Assembly (NCBI GenBank): GCA_022758925.1
Contig: JAEMQF010000269.1
Coordinates: 1 to 45,456 of the forward strand
Origin: Burkholderiales bacterium
GTDB taxonomy: Bacteria > Pseudomonadota > Gammaproteobacteria > Burkholderiales > Burkholderiaceae_C
DNA length: 45,456 nt
Direction: 5' to 3'
Under the pieces are notes generated by a model, which saw only the letters and a list, made by a program, of their open reading frames with translations, was not told where the DNA came from and ran no database searches. This document shows positions 27,326 through 45,456 of this stretch, in pieces; the stretch's first letter is position 1; each line of letters opens with the position of its first letter. The translations under genes were made by a program, and so were the position numbers.

Positions 27326-28465
27326 CTATCCGGGCCGTCGCCGTCCACGCCAGACGGCGAATGCGCTGCCGATGACGAACGCACCAAGGGCGAGCGCGTT
27401 CAGCGCAGCGCCGAGACGCAGCACCTCGGACGATCCGAAGCCATCGCCGCCGAGGCGCACCAGCAGCGATGCGTGCAGCAGCGCCAGTGGCGCGTAGAAG
27501 GCGGGGTGATACGGCAACTTCACGTGCAGCACCGCGGGCAGGATGATCGGCGCGTGGCCGAATACCATCGAAAACACGAAACCGAGCAGCAGTGCGTGCA
27601 GCGCGGCGTCGTAGGCGGCGTTGCCGGGCTGGAAGCCGCCGTTGGCGAGCGCCAGCGACGCGGCCACGGCGAGCCAGAAGTAGCCCGCCAGCAGTGCCAC
27701 CGCGATGTAGCGCGTCAGCCCCTTGGCGCGCACGGTGCGCCACGCGACGTCCTGGCGCAGCAGCCACAGCGCCAGGCCGAGCAGCGCCAGCGCGAACAGC
27801 AGCCCGCCCCAACGCAGGCCTTGCGTGGCGTCCGCCTCACCAGCCAGGCCAGCCAGGCCGGCCACGGTGGCCACGAGCAGGCCGGCAAAGACGCGCGACG
27901 CGAGCGCCGACGGCGGCAGAAAGCGTGACAGTTCGAGCCTCTCGCCGGCGATCGTCAGCACCAGGAAGGCGAGCCACCAAGGCACGACTTCGTGCACCGC
28001 AACGCCCAACGCCCAGCGCACGCTGCCGGCGAGCCAGGCGCAGGCAGCGAGCGCCAGCGTGAACGTGAACAACGCGCGCTGGCGCCGCCACAGATCGGCC
28101 GACGCCGCGACCAGCACCACGCCGCCGGCAACGGTGAACCAGGGCGCGGCGCGCTGCAGCCCGGCGAGCAGCGCCAGCGTGCCCAGGCCCGCGGCGAGCG
28201 GCGCCGTGTAGGCCCACAGGCGCCCAAGTGCTACCGCACGTTCAAGCGAAATCACGACGCCGAAGAAGCCGCAGATCATGAGCGGGCCGTGCAGCGTGCT
28301 GAGCGCGCTCGCGGCGTCGGGCATGGCCCAGCCCAGGCGCGCCAGGCCGGCAAGCGTGCCGCTGAGCAGCGCCACGAAGCCGAGCGCGAGCAGGGGTACG
28401 CGCTGCCACGGCGCGAGGTTCAGGTTCGTGCGCCGGGCGTTCAACGTGGACGCCTTGTGAAGCAC
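27326..28465 (-). CDS. Polytopic membrane protein (NnrS-like / denitrification-associated)
   Basis: 379 aa with many hydrophobic helices; ALSTLHGPLMICGFFGVVISLERAVALGR; GTG start. Confidence 0.6.
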   Translation of the reverse strand: MLHKASTLNARRTNLNLAPWQRVPLLALGFVALLSGTLAGLARLGWAMPDAASALSTLHGPLMICGFFGVVISLERAVALGRLWAYTAPLAAGLGTLALLAGLQRAAPWFTVAGGVVLVAASADLWRRQRALFTFTLALAACAWLAGSVRWALGVAVHEVVPWWLAFLVLTIAGERLELSRFLPPSALASRVFAGLLVATVAGLAGLAGEADATQGLRWGGLLFALALLGLALWLLRQDVAWRTVRAKGLTRYIAVALLAGYFWLAVAASLALANGGFQPGNAAYDAALHALLLGFVFSMVFGHAPIILPAVLHVKLPYHPAFYAPLALLHASLLVRLGGDGFGSSEVLRLGAALNALALGAFVIGSAFAVWRGRRRPG

Positions 28466-28641
28466 TGGGCTTCACCCGGTGTCAAACACGGCGTGACACG
28501 TGGCGTCACGCACGCGGCGACACCCGGTGTCGAGCACGTCGCGACACCCGGTGTCACGCACGCGGCGACACCCGGTGTCAAGCACGGGTGACACCCGGAG
28601 TCAAGCACGCGGCGACAGGAGCTTGCGGCCCGCGCGATCAC
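28441..28641 (-). CDS. Possible 66-aa cysteine-repeat small protein
   Basis: GTG start overlaps the DUF59 stop (GTGA); SSCRRVLDSGCHPCLTPGVAACVTPGVATCSTPGVAACVTPRVTPCLTPGEAQCFTRRPR with Cys every 8 residues. Confidence 0.35.
   Translation of the reverse strand: MIARAASSCRRVLDSGCHPCLTPGVAACVTPGVATCSTPGVAACVTPRVTPCLTPGEAQCFTRRPR
28470..28620. repeat. Degenerate 24-bp tandem repeat array, ~5-6 units
   Basis: Units 28510-28533, 28534-28557, 28558-28581, 28582-28604 (23 bp); consensus GCACGCGGCGACACCCGGTGTCAA with near-palindrome GACACC-C-GGTGTC. Confidence 0.9.
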
Positions 28642-28961
28642 TGCTGCGAGCCCGGCCAGCCGAAAAACTCGCGTGCCGTGCCACTCATCATCGACGGGTT
28701 CCAGATCGGCTCCCAGACGAGCTGCAAACGCACTTCGGTGGCTGCGGGGCAGGCGCGCTGCACGGCAAGCCGGGCCTGTTCGACGAGCATGTCCGCGACC
28801 GGGCAGGCGGGTGTGGTCATCGTCATGTCGACCTCGACCCGGCCGTCGACGACCTCGACGCGGTAGACCAGCCCGAGCTCGACGATGTTCATGCCGGCCT
28901 CGGGATCGTCGACCTCGCGCAGCGCGTCGTACACCGCGCTCGCATCGGGAGCGGGGGTCAC
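28638..28961 (-). CDS. DUF59 / MIP18-family metal-sulfur cluster assembly factor
   Basis: VTPAPDASAVYDALREVDDPEAGMNIVELGLVYRVEVVDGRVEVDMTMTTPACPVADMLVEQA; GTG start. Confidence 0.85.
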   Translation of the reverse strand: MTPAPDASAVYDALREVDDPEAGMNIVELGLVYRVEVVDGRVEVDMTMTTPACPVADMLVEQARLAVQRACPAATEVRLQLVWEPIWNPSMMSGTAREFFGWPGSQQ

Positions 28962-29026
28962 TGCGTAACCTCCGTGCTTCGCACTGCGGTGCGAGCCCCC
29001 TTCGGAACGGCCGGGCGGGGGCTCAT
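28958..29026 (-). repeat. Single copy of the ~65-bp stop-start coupling repeat (mini-ORF MSPRPAVPKGARTAVRSTEVTQ)
   Basis: Same sequence as the terminal array; its ATG overlaps the GNAT stop (ATGA) and its TGA overlaps the DUF59 GTG start (GTGA); internal GGAGG. Confidence 0.9.
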
Positions 29027-30036
29027 GCCACCGGGCGCACGAACGCCAACCGCTGCGACGGCTTGAAGCCGGCGTCGAAGAGGAAGCCCAGCAGCGCGAG
29101 TTGGGTGGTGGGCTCGACCACGGTCTCGACGCGATCGACATGCAGCGCGTCCAGGCTCGCGAACAGCTGCGACAACAGCGCGTGGCCGATGCCGCGGTGT
29201 TCGTAGCCGGGGTCGACACCGATCGTGTCGAGCACGGCCACCGGCTCGGCGCGCCCGAAGTCGCCCAGGTCGGCACGCGCCATCAGGTAACCGACGATCG
29301 CACCCTCCAGGCGCGCGCTGAGCGAGACGCGGATCGCCGACTCGTCCATCGCCTCGCCGAGCTTGGCGGCGATATAGGCCTCGCGGTTGCGGCCGGTGAG
29401 CACGGAGTCGATGCGCACGATCTGCGGCAGGTCCGCAGGTGCCATCGCGCGCACGTCGCAGCGCAGCGTCGCGATGCGCTCGAAATCATTGCCTGCGGGC
29501 GCGCCGTAGTCGATCTCGTGGCTCGTGCCAAAGCCTTCGGGCAACTCCAGCGCGTCGTCACGCTCGGCCTGATAGCCGTCGCCGACGGCGCAGTCGACCA
29601 CCAGGTTCGGCGCCAGCGTGAAGCCCATCGCATCGAGCCAGTGCAACATGGTGTGCTCGCTCCACCGGGCGCCGGTGCGCAGATCGGCCACCCCATGCTG
29701 GCGCGCATGCTGCACCAGCGCGTCCAGCAGCAGCTTGCCCACGCCGTGCCCGCGCTGCGCGGGGCGCACGCCGATCACCTCGAGCCGCAGGCCGGGAAGC
29801 TGGCGGCCGAATTCGCCCTCGATGCGCCGCGCCAGGATGTAGCCGACGAGGCCGTCGGCGTCGGCCGCGGCGAGCTGCACGTGCAGGCGCGGCTCCTTCA
29901 CCGCGCTCGCCAGCCGGCGCTGGAAGTAGGCGCGGCGCTGGCGGCCTTCGAGGGCGGCGTCGATCGCGACCACCGCATCGAGGTCTTGCTTCGTCATCGC
30001 GCGCACCGTCACCGCCGGGGTCAGGTCGTGTTCCAT
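29023..30036 (-). CDS. Tandem-GNAT acetyltransferase
   Basis: Two GNAT domains: LEVIGVRPAQRGHGVGKLLLDALV and LDTIGVDPGYEHRGIGHALLSQLF. Confidence 0.85.
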   Translation of the reverse strand: MEHDLTPAVTVRAMTKQDLDAVVAIDAALEGRQRRAYFQRRLASAVKEPRLHVQLAAADADGLVGYILARRIEGEFGRQLPGLRLEVIGVRPAQRGHGVGKLLLDALVQHARQHGVADLRTGARWSEHTMLHWLDAMGFTLAPNLVVDCAVGDGYQAERDDALELPEGFGTSHEIDYGAPAGNDFERIATLRCDVRAMAPADLPQIVRIDSVLTGRNREAYIAAKLGEAMDESAIRVSLSARLEGAIVGYLMARADLGDFGRAEPVAVLDTIGVDPGYEHRGIGHALLSQLFASLDALHVDRVETVVEPTTQLALLGFLFDAGFKPSQRLAFVRPVA

Positions 30037-30052
30037 GCTGTGGGTCCTTGTT

Positions 30053-30157
30053 GCGGGTTCGGTGTCAGCGGGTGCGATGTCAGCGGGCGCGGTGTCAGCG
30101 GGTGCGGTGTCAGCGGATTCGGTGTCAGCGGGCGCGGTGCCAGCGGGTACGGTGACA
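30053..30157. repeat. 15-bp tandem repeat, 7 units
   Basis: Consensus GCGGGTGCGGTGTCA, e.g. gcgggttcggtgtca gcgggtgcgatgtca gcgggcgcggtgtca gcgggtgcggtgtca gcggattcggtgtca gcgggcgcggtgcca gcgggtacggtgaca. Confidence 0.92.
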
Positions 30158-30257
30158 CGCCGCGCTCGGCCGCGCGCAGAGGTCCGGCGCAACGGGCCAG
30201 GAAGGCGCCATTTTCGGGCCCTGCGGGCGACGCAGTACGAGTCTGGGGCTCGGCATC

Positions 30258-32586: not shown

Positions 32587-33249
32587 CTACAGCCTTCCTG
32601 CTTCCAGAAAACTGAAGTATCCGGTCCTGTTGAAGATGATGTGATCCAGCAGCTCGATGCCTACGATCTCGCCCGCCGCTTTGAGCTGGGCGGTGATGTT
32701 GATGTCGCTCTGCGACGGCTCGACACCACCGCTCGGATGATTGTGGGCAACGATGACGGCGGCAGCCCGGTCGGACAGCGCATCCGCGAAGACTTCGCGC
32801 GGATGAACCGGGCTGCGGTCAATCAGGCCGATCGAAACGACGCGAATGTTCAGGATCTCATTCGCGCCGTTGATGCTGCCGCATAGAAAGTGCTCCTGCT
32901 TCCGGTCGGCATAGTGCCGGATGTGCGGCAACAAGTCGGCCGGGGTTTCGATCTTCACACCCTCCGGCTTGATGCGGCGGCGGGCGAACTCAATCGCCGC
33001 GAGAACCAAAGTGGCCTTCGCGTCGCCCACGCCTTCGAACTGCGTCAGGTCTTCGGCCTTCACTTGCAGGCCCCTCTCGTCAATGAGCCGCGCCAGCTTC
33101 CCGGCAAGGGTCATGACATCCATCCCGGGCGTGCCCTTGCCAAGCAGCACCGCCAGCAGCTCCCGATCGCTCAACGCAGCCGCGCCCTTGCGCAACAGCT
33201 TCTCGCGCGGGCGGTCGGCTTCGGGCATCTGGTGGATGGTCTTGCTCAC
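32587..33249 (-). CDS. radC: RadC family JAB-domain protein
   Basis: REKLLRKGAAALSDRELLAVLLGKG, VIVAHNHPSGGVEPSQSDINITAQLKAAGEIVGIELLDHIIF; GTG start. Confidence 0.93.
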   Translation of the reverse strand: MSKTIHQMPEADRPREKLLRKGAAALSDRELLAVLLGKGTPGMDVMTLAGKLARLIDERGLQVKAEDLTQFEGVGDAKATLVLAAIEFARRRIKPEGVKIETPADLLPHIRHYADRKQEHFLCGSINGANEILNIRVVSIGLIDRSPVHPREVFADALSDRAAAVIVAHNHPSGGVEPSQSDINITAQLKAAGEIVGIELLDHIIFNRTGYFSFLEAGRL

Positions 33250-33323
33250 TTGGCCCCCTTGGCCCTGCGGCCCGTCCCCCCAATGGGGAGCGAGCACCTT
33301 CGGAACGGCCGTGCGGTGCTCAT
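33246..33323 (-). repeat. Divergent copy of the coupling repeat (mini-ORF MSTARPFRRCSLPIGGTGRRAKGAK)
   Basis: ATGAGC start, hairpin GAGCACC-GCACGGCCGTTCCGAA-GGTGCTC, second hairpin TCCCC-ATTG-GGGGA, stop TGA overlapping the radC GTG. Confidence 0.7.
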
Positions 33324-42918: not shown

Positions 42919-45219
42919 TCAACCCAGCGTCGCGTGCAATTCCTGTAGCTTGCGGCGCTGCAGCTTGCCGGTGGGCCCGCGCGGCAGCGCGGCAATCGAG
43001 TGCAGCCAACGCGGCCGTTGGTGGTGTGGCAGGTTCTGCGCGAATTCGCGCAATGCGGTGCCGGCGCCGGCGGCCGCGGTGGCGTCGCCGGTGACGTAAA
43101 AAAGCGCCACCGCGTCGACACCGTCGGCATCGGGAACGCAGACGGCCGCGGCTTCAACGATTGCCGCAGATGCCGATGCGAGTTGCTCTTCGAGTTCGAT
43201 CAGGTTGACCCAGCGCCCGCCGATCTTCACCAGCGAATCCTCGCGACCCGCGAAACGCCAGCCGCCTGGGGTGCCAGCCCCAGGGCTCAGCGCGCCGAGC
43301 CCGCCCGAAAGCGCAGGCGTGGCACCCACTTCGCCGGCGCTCGCGGGCGTGGCCTGCGCGTCGCCGGCGCTCGTGCGCAAGCCGACCTGGGGCGGCACGG
43401 CGCCGACTCTCGGCATGCGCGAGAACAAATCGGCCGGGCAGAACGCACCGTCGCGGAAGGTCTCGGCCTGCGCCAGGGGCCGGTCGAGGTAACCCAGCGC
43501 GAGCGTCGGCGCGCGGATGCGCAGCCGCGTCGGCGCGTTCACGTCGGCCTGCGCCAGCGGCTCGATCTCGACACCCGGTGTGGGCCTGAAGCCCTGCCCG
43601 TCGCCGCGGTCCAGCATCACCAGAACCTGCGTCTCGGAAGCGCCGTAGCCGTCGATGATCGTCAGTCCCGTCTGCTCGCGCCAGGCGTCGCGCAGGCTCG
43701 GCGGCAAGGCCTCGCCGGCCGACACGCACAGCCGCACGCCGGCGCTCGCAATGCGCGGGGCCAGCCCTTCACGCAACAGGTTGCGGTACAGCGTCGGCAC
43801 GCTGAACAGCACCGTCGCGCGCTGCTCCTGAACCGTCGCTGCCACGCTCTGCGCCGTCGGCCACTGCGGATCGAGCAGCACGCTGGCACCGAGCTTCAGG
43901 CCGGCGAACAGGCTGTTCGCCAGCGGGTAGGAAAAGAACAGCTTCGAGCTCGCGAAGAGGCGGTCGTCGGCGCGCACGCCGAGTGCCTCGCGAGACACCT
44001 GTTCGACGCAGCGCGCGCTGCGGTGCGCATGCACCACCGCCTTCGGTTTGCCCGAGGTTCCCGACGAATGGCACCAGAACGCCGGTGCCTCCGGGTGCAT
44101 CGGTTCGGGCCCGAGCGGAAGCGCTCGCGCCACGGCGCGCCGCCAGTCTTCGAGCAGCACGACGCGTTCGCTCCAGGGCGCGGGCGTGTCGTCGCGCGAC
44201 TCGGCGAGGATCGCGTGAAAACCGGCTTCGTCGAGGATGTAGGACCACTCGGCCTGCGCAATTCGCGGATTCACCGCGACCGCGACGCCGCCGGCCCAGA
44301 TCGTCCCCAGGAAAGCGCTGACCCAGTCGTAGCCGTCGGGCAGCCTGATCGCGACGCGTTCGCCGAGCGCGACTCCGCGCGCACGCAACACCGATGCCGC
44401 ACGCGCCACGCCTTCGTGCAGCGCGCCATAGCTGGTGCTCTGCGCGCCGCAGCGCAGCGCGGTGCGCTGCGGGTCCTGATGCGCGAGCAGCACCGCTGCG
44501 GCATTCATCAAACGAACCGGGGTCAGCGTGCGCGGTGTCTCGGGCCGCAGCAGATCGGCGCGCGACACGCCCAGCTTGCCGACGCGCCAGCGTGCGTACT
44601 CGGCGCTCAGCTGTTGCGCGTGCCCGATCTCCTCGGCAGCGAGTTCACGGTACAGCCGCTGCTCGCTCGACCCGGTCCCGGCCTGCGCCGAGCGCTCGGC
44701 AAAGAAATCGGCCGCACGCTGCTCCATCTCGATCGCGATCCGAAACAGGCTCTCCGGGTCTTGCGGCCGGTTCGGCACGGTGCCGAAGATCGCCGCCAAT
44801 TCGGCCTTGAAACCCGGCTCGGGCACCGGCACATCGACGTGGTAGCGGCGCGCCAGGGTTTCCATGTGTTCGCCCTCCATCAGCGCGAAGCGGCTGAAGA
44901 GATCGCGCAGCGCCGAGTCGTCGCTTTCAGCCGCGGCACGCTGGTAGAAAGCGCGCCCGCCGAGCTCGATTTCGAACGCCTTGCGGATCGCCTGGAGCGC
45001 GCTGGCGTGGTCGATGCGGCTCGCCTGCGGCAGCACGAGCTCGCCGCCACAACCCGGGCAGCGGCCATAGGCAAACGCAAATCCCTCGCTGACCTTGGCG
45101 CACTGTGTGCAGCGCCATTGCCGGCTCGCACTGGCGCAGCAGACGCTGCCTTCTTCGGCGTCGGCGGCGAGCGGGCGTTGGCAGTTCGGGCACAGCTTCA
45201 TGTTGACCTGCGTGCTCAT
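42919..45219 (-). CDS. Zn-ribbon + rubrerythrin-like diiron domain fused to an acyl-CoA (benzoate-CoA-like) ligase
   Basis: CPNC/CTQC/CPGC ribbons; EIELGGRAFYQ, EGEHMETL, EMEQRAADF, EEIGHAQQL; then AMP-binding WCHSSGTSGKPKAVVHAH, GYGASETQVL, GREDSLVKIGGRWVN, PTGKLQRR. Confidence 0.88.
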   Translation of the reverse strand: MSTQVNMKLCPNCQRPLAADAEEGSVCCASASRQWRCTQCAKVSEGFAFAYGRCPGCGGELVLPQASRIDHASALQAIRKAFEIELGGRAFYQRAAAESDDSALRDLFSRFALMEGEHMETLARRYHVDVPVPEPGFKAELAAIFGTVPNRPQDPESLFRIAIEMEQRAADFFAERSAQAGTGSSEQRLYRELAAEEIGHAQQLSAEYARWRVGKLGVSRADLLRPETPRTLTPVRLMNAAAVLLAHQDPQRTALRCGAQSTSYGALHEGVARAASVLRARGVALGERVAIRLPDGYDWVSAFLGTIWAGGVAVAVNPRIAQAEWSYILDEAGFHAILAESRDDTPAPWSERVVLLEDWRRAVARALPLGPEPMHPEAPAFWCHSSGTSGKPKAVVHAHRSARCVEQVSREALGVRADDRLFASSKLFFSYPLANSLFAGLKLGASVLLDPQWPTAQSVAATVQEQRATVLFSVPTLYRNLLREGLAPRIASAGVRLCVSAGEALPPSLRDAWREQTGLTIIDGYGASETQVLVMLDRGDGQGFRPTPGVEIEPLAQADVNAPTRLRIRAPTLALGYLDRPLAQAETFRDGAFCPADLFSRMPRVGAVPPQVGLRTSAGDAQATPASAGEVGATPALSGGLGALSPGAGTPGGWRFAGREDSLVKIGGRWVNLIELEEQLASASAAIVEAAAVCVPDADGVDAVALFYVTGDATAAAGAGTALREFAQNLPHHQRPRWLHSIAALPRGPTGKLQRRKLQELHATLG

Positions 45220-45456
45220 TGCGTAACCTCCGTGCTTCGCACTGCGGTGCGAGCCCCCTTCGGAACGGCCGGGCGGGGGCTCATTGGGTAACCTCCGTGC
45301 TTCGCACTGCGGTGCGAGCCCCCTTCGGAACGGCCGGGCGGGGGCTCATTGCGTAACCTCCGTGCTTCGCACTGCGGTGCGAGCCCCCTTCGGAACGGCC
45401 GGGCGGGGGCTCATTGGGTAACCTCCGTGCTTCGCACTGCGGTGCGAGCCCCCTTC
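45216..45456 (-). repeat. Tandem array of the 65-bp stop-start coupling repeat (3 full units plus partial, runs off window)
   Basis: ATG (minus strand) at 45219, 45284, 45349, 45414, spaced exactly 65 bp; each unit encodes MSPRPAVPKGARTAVRSTEVTQ* with TGA overlapping the next ATG. Confidence 0.95.

Follow-up and report, generated by a model that had tools for sequence, protein, structure and literature searches.

A proliferating, structured repeat cassette at stop-start overlaps of Burkholderiales genes

The cassette at the GNAT-DUF59 junction and its copies

The window, i.e., the whole stretch of 45,456 nucleotides that was analyzed (Burkholderiales bacterium, GCA_022758925.1, contig JAEMQF010000269.1), carries on its minus strand a GNAT acetyltransferase gene and a FeS_assembly_P (formerly DUF59) gene, which are joined by a short cassette with the following features.

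29023..30192, minus strand: upstream GNAT acetyltransferase gene, extent of the open frame (Pfam PF00583, 1e-19)
28958..29026, minus strand: coupling cassette ATGA...GTGA with a 22-codon mini-ORF, 69 nt (inserted unit 65 nt)
29023..29026, minus strand: ATGA, GNAT stop overlapping the mini-ORF start
28993..29024, minus strand: hairpin 1, 8-bp stem GAGCCCCC/GGGGGCTC, loop GCCCGGCCGTTCCGAA
28968..28990, minus strand: hairpin 2, ACC GCA [GTGC GAA GCAC] GGA GGT, enclosing the Shine-Dalgarno (SD) motif; supported by covariation
28969..28973, minus strand: SD motif GGAGG, 7 nt before GTG
28958..28961, minus strand: GTGA, DUF59 start overlapping the mini-ORF stop; presumed original target RTGA
28638..28961, minus strand: downstream FeS_assembly_P (formerly DUF59) gene (Pfam PF01883, 1e-21)

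A sequence-only reading had described a repeat between GNAT and DUF59 genes, with a seamless ATGA/GTGA fit at both junctions, a 22-codon ORF and an upstream GGAGG. Its coordinates, its sequence (minus strand, ATGAGCCCCC...GGAGGTTACGCAGTGA), the fit, the ORF and the SD motif were all found as described, and the Pfam matches agreed with both gene assignments. The GNAT frame ends with ...CCGGTGGC[ATGA], its TGA falling within the cassette ATGA. The mini-ORF, which is in phase with both the GNAT stop and the DUF59 start, encodes MSPRPAVPKGARTAVRSTEVTQ followed by a stop, and the cassette ends with ACGCA[GTGA], the GTG of which is the start of the DUF59 gene. Imperfect 24-nt tandem repeats of the GCGACACCCGGTGTCAAGCACG type lie directly downstream of the DUF59 gene (28456-28617), and a 15-nt tandem repeat, GCGGGTGCGGTGTCA, lies at the start of the GNAT region (30038-30172).

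Two further sites were found in the window, including a diverged copy that is absent from the sequence-only reading.

45216..45456, minus strand: tandem array of the cassette, 65-nt period, running off the contig end
42919..45219, minus strand: AMP-binding plus rubrerythrin-like gene downstream of the array; its ATGA start overlaps the stop of the last unit
33246..33323, minus strand: third copy, diverged and 78 nt long, its 25-codon ORF ending AAGTGA, before a radC-like gene
32587..33249, minus strand: RadC (UPF0758) gene; the GTGA of the 78-nt copy provides its start

The 4.6-Mb draft genome to which the window belongs (G000) contained 55 matches (blastn, E<=1e-3), most of them with 93-100% identity. 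From these, 50 units were extracted at about 25-30 sites. Nearly all connect a gene's stop to the start of the following gene, and they have a single orientation relative to the genes. The number and identity of the matches, nearly all of them fitting at both ends, exclude chance. The occupied junctions include nuoJ-nuoK, rsmH-ftsL (five units) and a dapE-prmB-like pair, the last two genes being named by eye from their sequence; further sites lie before dsbB, malate synthase, crcB and ilvD-type genes. A few sites have a clear gene end on one side only. At three loci, where the downstream frame at first looked non-genic, the cassette is followed by a second, non-homologous mini-ORF of 24-34 codons, whose end lies within the ATGA at the start of the real gene. 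About ten contig ends are located inside arrays, and thus the true copy number is probably higher.

Variants of the linker were grouped by neighborhood. Among the 50 units TTACGCA was confined to two sites, both in the window (28958-29026 and 45216-45456), and TTACCGA to two sites on one other contig, which suggests short-range spread or conversion. At five independent loci similar dimers with a 63-nt in-frame junction were found, as if two-unit composites moved together.

A covariance model was built from 66-nt relatives. It matched 159 of 251 genomes and 99 of 141 genera of the same family, and in an order-wide draw of 300 genomes only 17 genomes outside the family had a match. Related genera had 0-20 diverged matches, compared to the 55 near-identical ones in G000. 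Many of the 99 genera with matches also had copies showing the stop-start fit. The distribution by named organism rests on plasmid records: plasmids of Variovorax and Diaphorobacter carry the cassette, and independently annotated genes end and start exactly at its ends. In Variovorax SRS16 and PBL-E5 two sites share hairpin 2, the SD motif and a 98.6% identical downstream gene; the hairpin-1 types differ and the upstream DNA is unrelated, and the cassette may have acted as a recombination point. A phage collection contained no copy, Rfam gave no family match at gathering score, and the beta-proteobacterial repeat element (BRE) was the only hit when the literature was searched for the repeat, its peptide or an element linking stop to start.

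Empty sites and the phase of the mini-ORF

The sequence-only reading had argued for insertion into a stop-start overlap, and this was supported by orthologous junctions devoid of the cassette. In genome G028 the GNAT-DUF59 junction reads ...CCCGGT[ATGA]ACATGCCC, with a DUF59 protein that is 68% identical. At nuoJ-nuoK the cassette was present in none of 29 relatives; 26 of them had a bare RTGA overlap preceded by an open nuoJ frame, and G000 alone in this comparison had the arrangement ...GGAGGGCAGGC[ATGA]-cassette-[ATGA]CCTCGG. The cassette is therefore a derived insertion directly 5′ of a pre-existing RTGA and not ancestral intergenic DNA. Loss of an ancestral sequence in the relatives would have to account for the bare overlap in the 26 nuoJ-nuoK relatives as well as in the one informative GNAT-DUF59 relative, and is hardly conceivable. 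Further empty sites on plasmids (Yoonia, Azospirillum, Shinella) were too distant to decide.

The ends of 87 distinct copies were called by script, and the doubtful ones alone were examined by eye. The 5′ end was ATGA in 84 copies, and the 3′ end was ATGA in 58 and GTGA in 22. This bias fits a unit that comes with an ATGA and enters 5′ of a native RTGA. An inserted copy has an RTGA at each end, and arrays could therefore grow by repeated insertion. In a wider sample of related genomes, open frames of at least 100 codons on both sides and in the right phase were found for 70 of 88 copies, compared to 17 of 518 ordinary RTGA sites in the same DNA; the sampled copies were mainly high-scoring and are kin by descent, and thus probability values are too optimistic.

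The length of the cassette followed a phase rule. It was divisible by three in 65 of the 87 distinct copies, 61 of which stop exactly at the downstream RTGA. In 19 copies the remainder was one, and the mini-ORF runs in frame into the downstream gene. The three remaining script calls turned out, on re-reading, to represent either in-frame arrays or a copy of 99 nt that likewise stops at ATGA, so that after this correction by hand the third phase was not found in any of the 87 copies, across genera. When genome-by-length events were counted instead, all 54 of them, from 46 genomes, had a permitted phase. The rule holds for lengths of 63, 64, 66, 67, 69, 70, 78, 84, 85 and 99 nt, and it is obeyed by plasmid copies (63 and 99 nt) and by the long form of genome G738 (84/85 nt, with array units of 81 nt). 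The exceptions are array-internal 64-nt spacings on two contigs of G000 (C235 and C244). At three loci of G738 arrays of 81-nt units encode in-frame repeat peptides, and at one of them the repeat peptide is fused to the downstream protein (MSAAARPPEGDAPSHGEDVAQRQEGTS...).

What is preserved is the phase of the handover and not the peptide, because other frames are in use and the RTGA stop is kept. Some 69-nt copies contain single-base insertions that sum up to three, two of which form an extra base pair; these copies are read in another frame and retain the RTGA stop. In two genomes (G232 and G201) the mini-ORF uses a different frame of the same RNA, giving MSAARPFRRRSAPQCAARR, and still ends at RTGA. 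It is thus very improbable that the 22-residue peptide is the reason for keeping the repeat: the motif ARTAVRSTEV is recognizable in many genera, but other copies use different frames or are fused to the downstream protein. Peptide conservation was accordingly rejected as the reason for the mini-ORF.

The sequence-only reading had further taken the cassette as a linker that supplies a ribosome binding site. The SD motif is well placed, and empty nuoJ-nuoK junctions often already have a GGAG-type motif before the ATGA. The cassette therefore relays a ribosome binding site and is not its first creator. The expression of DUF59 may depend on the cassette, and the supply of a ribosome binding site might be its purpose.

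Covarying hairpins and the probable mode of persistence

Hairpin 1 occurs in two forms, a 7-bp stem with a 15-nt loop and an 8-bp stem with a 16-nt loop, and it shows compensatory changes (one pair is GC in 41 and CG in 26 cases). Covariation was also observed for hairpin 2, and it holds across genera. In 60 distinct 29-nt segments 97.6% of the cells pair. Double-change cells numbered 36, compared to 6.4 for shuffled segments and no more than 4 for slid controls. For the pair closing on the base that follows the SD motif, the counts were AU 37, GU 5, CG 5, GC 4 and UA 2. In-silico folding in context did not reveal that the SD motif is more masked than in shuffled controls (0.40 versus 0.35 unpaired), and therefore hairpin 2 is treated here as a hypothetical gate.

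These results bear on the possibility that the cassette is a domesticated regulatory RNA, in which hairpin 2 masks the SD motif, the downstream gene is made only upon upstream translation, and the benefit of stricter coupling maintains the copies. The covariation of the inner stem and of the pair just 3′ of the SD motif, the conservation of this motif and its spacing, and the presence of the cassette between functionally linked genes (nuoJ-nuoK and rsmH-ftsL, for example) would agree with such a role. However, SD masking was not in excess in the folding analysis, and hairpins that matter as single-stranded DNA would give the same covariation; that of hairpin 2 could reflect a DNA hairpin used in transposition. 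In addition, near-identical copies are present at unrelated operons of G000 and absent from the orthologous junction of relatives, as expected for recent spread. Taken together, domestication appears unlikely, though it deserves more weight than the other alternatives.

The data are probably best explained by a structured repeat of the BRE superfamily that proliferates without being autonomous and inserts directly 5′ of RTGA, above all at co-directional stop-start overlaps. The inserted unit would comprise ATGA, hairpin 1 and hairpin 2 with the SD motif. After insertion, the upstream gene would still terminate at its TGA, now within the ATGA of the element. The ribosome would reinitiate at this ATGA, translate about 20 codons, cross the SD-containing hairpin 2, and then either stop at the downstream start or continue in frame through it. 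The RTGA left at both ends would allow new copies to insert beside old ones, yielding head-to-tail arrays. Ribosomes thus presumably use the mini-ORF, and hence the cassette would be tolerated: the stop-restart handover would make an insertion nearly harmless, so that the element could persist where other insertions are lost.

A more far-reaching version is put forward tentatively, and it has somewhat less than even chances. The translational stop-start overlap itself would be the target of a mobile element that spreads inside operons, including the essential rsmH-ftsL, and that brings its own start, an SD-gating hairpin and an in-phase stop. If true, the element would be self-coupling, and tightly overlapping gene junctions would become relay stations that can be tuned.

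ATGA-type overlaps are among the commonest bacterial junctions and were expected to be closed to insertions; the cassette family illustrates a way for DNA to get into them with co-translation left intact. The cassettes also explain why genes of Burkholderiales genomes can have unusual N-terminal extensions or mis-called starts, they give a lead on the function of the unexplained BRE, and the natural pairs of filled and empty sites can be used for measuring translational coupling.

Comparison with BRE and other known systems

BRE has been described as a repeat element in Bordetella and Comamonadaceae, with copies counted in the latter (Hot et al., 2011, PMC3110155). No function was proposed, and a stop-start fit was not described, while some BREs were reported to overlap ORF ends by a few bases. 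Both BRE and the cassette are short (about 40-91 bp), GC-rich repeats that are dispersed in betaproteobacterial genomes and occur singly or in head-to-tail arrays of variable number. The same study places two BREs at lexA, and two tandem repeats of about 83 nt were found directly 3′ of lexA in a comparison genome that was taken as B. pertussis because it encodes a protein 100% identical to Bug27. The lexA BRE and the Variovorax cassette have the hairpin-1 core CGCCGGGCCGCCCCAAG in common; 17 nt in this core are identical between one cassette (L077) and the lexA repeat, and model R1 had no match in the B. pertussis genome. In contrast to the cassette, the lexA BRE lacks ATGA/RTGA ends, an SD motif and an in-phase ORF. 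The Bordetella BRE has a length of about 83-91 nt and three hairpins, whereas the middle hairpin is missing from the short form of the cassette, and it lies between genes, mostly intergenically, whereas the cassette occupies stop-start overlaps. G738, which belongs to the same family as Bordetella, contains 84/85-nt long cassettes with ATGA and RTGA ends. These forms bridge BRE and the cassette, which is therefore placed in the BRE superfamily as a distinct, stop-start-targeted variant. At five loci BRE-like three-hairpin elements were found in opposite orientation, ending at or beside a start codon (...TGAC|ATG), and the long form too may favor gene starts.

REP elements (PMC2817692) share with the cassette a high copy number and an imperfect palindrome beside a conserved tetranucleotide, which is of the GTAG type in REPs and ATGA in the cassette. 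The cassette differs in that it is longer, has one orientation relative to genes, resides inside stop-start overlaps and has no RAYT link. Movement by a Y1 tyrosine transposase (RAYT or IS200/IS605 type) that recognizes RTGA and the hairpin would account for the tetranucleotide beside a conserved hairpin and for the high copy number, it would not need a target duplication, and such enzymes were found in 10 of 14 genomes tested. However, four genomes with many copies (G121, G167, G251 and G021) had no PF01797 match, and a convincing cassette was lacking near 17 of 18 Y1 loci, whereas RAYT genes, according to a published description, invariably have their own REPs at their flanks (PMC2817692). 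A RAYT partner is thus not supported, and a Y1-driven origin is rather improbable. As to features of MITEs derived from DDE insertion sequences, no terminal inverted repeats were apparent by eye, and the R of the 5′ RTGA is often a different base from that of the 3′ RTGA, which speaks against a 4-nt target duplication.

Rickettsia palindromic elements are small repeats that insert with reading frames kept, and they are described inside genes. The cassette, in contrast, lies between genes, where it would restart translation or is fused to the downstream frame.

ATGA overlaps conferred strict coupling in 13 of 14 tested gene pairs (Huber et al., 2019, PMC6728339). Termination-reinitiation at these sites involves a 4-nt overlap, usually together with an SD motif, as is present at both ends of the cassette. 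The overlaps of that study join two native genes, whereas the cassette places a repeat and its own mini-ORF in between.
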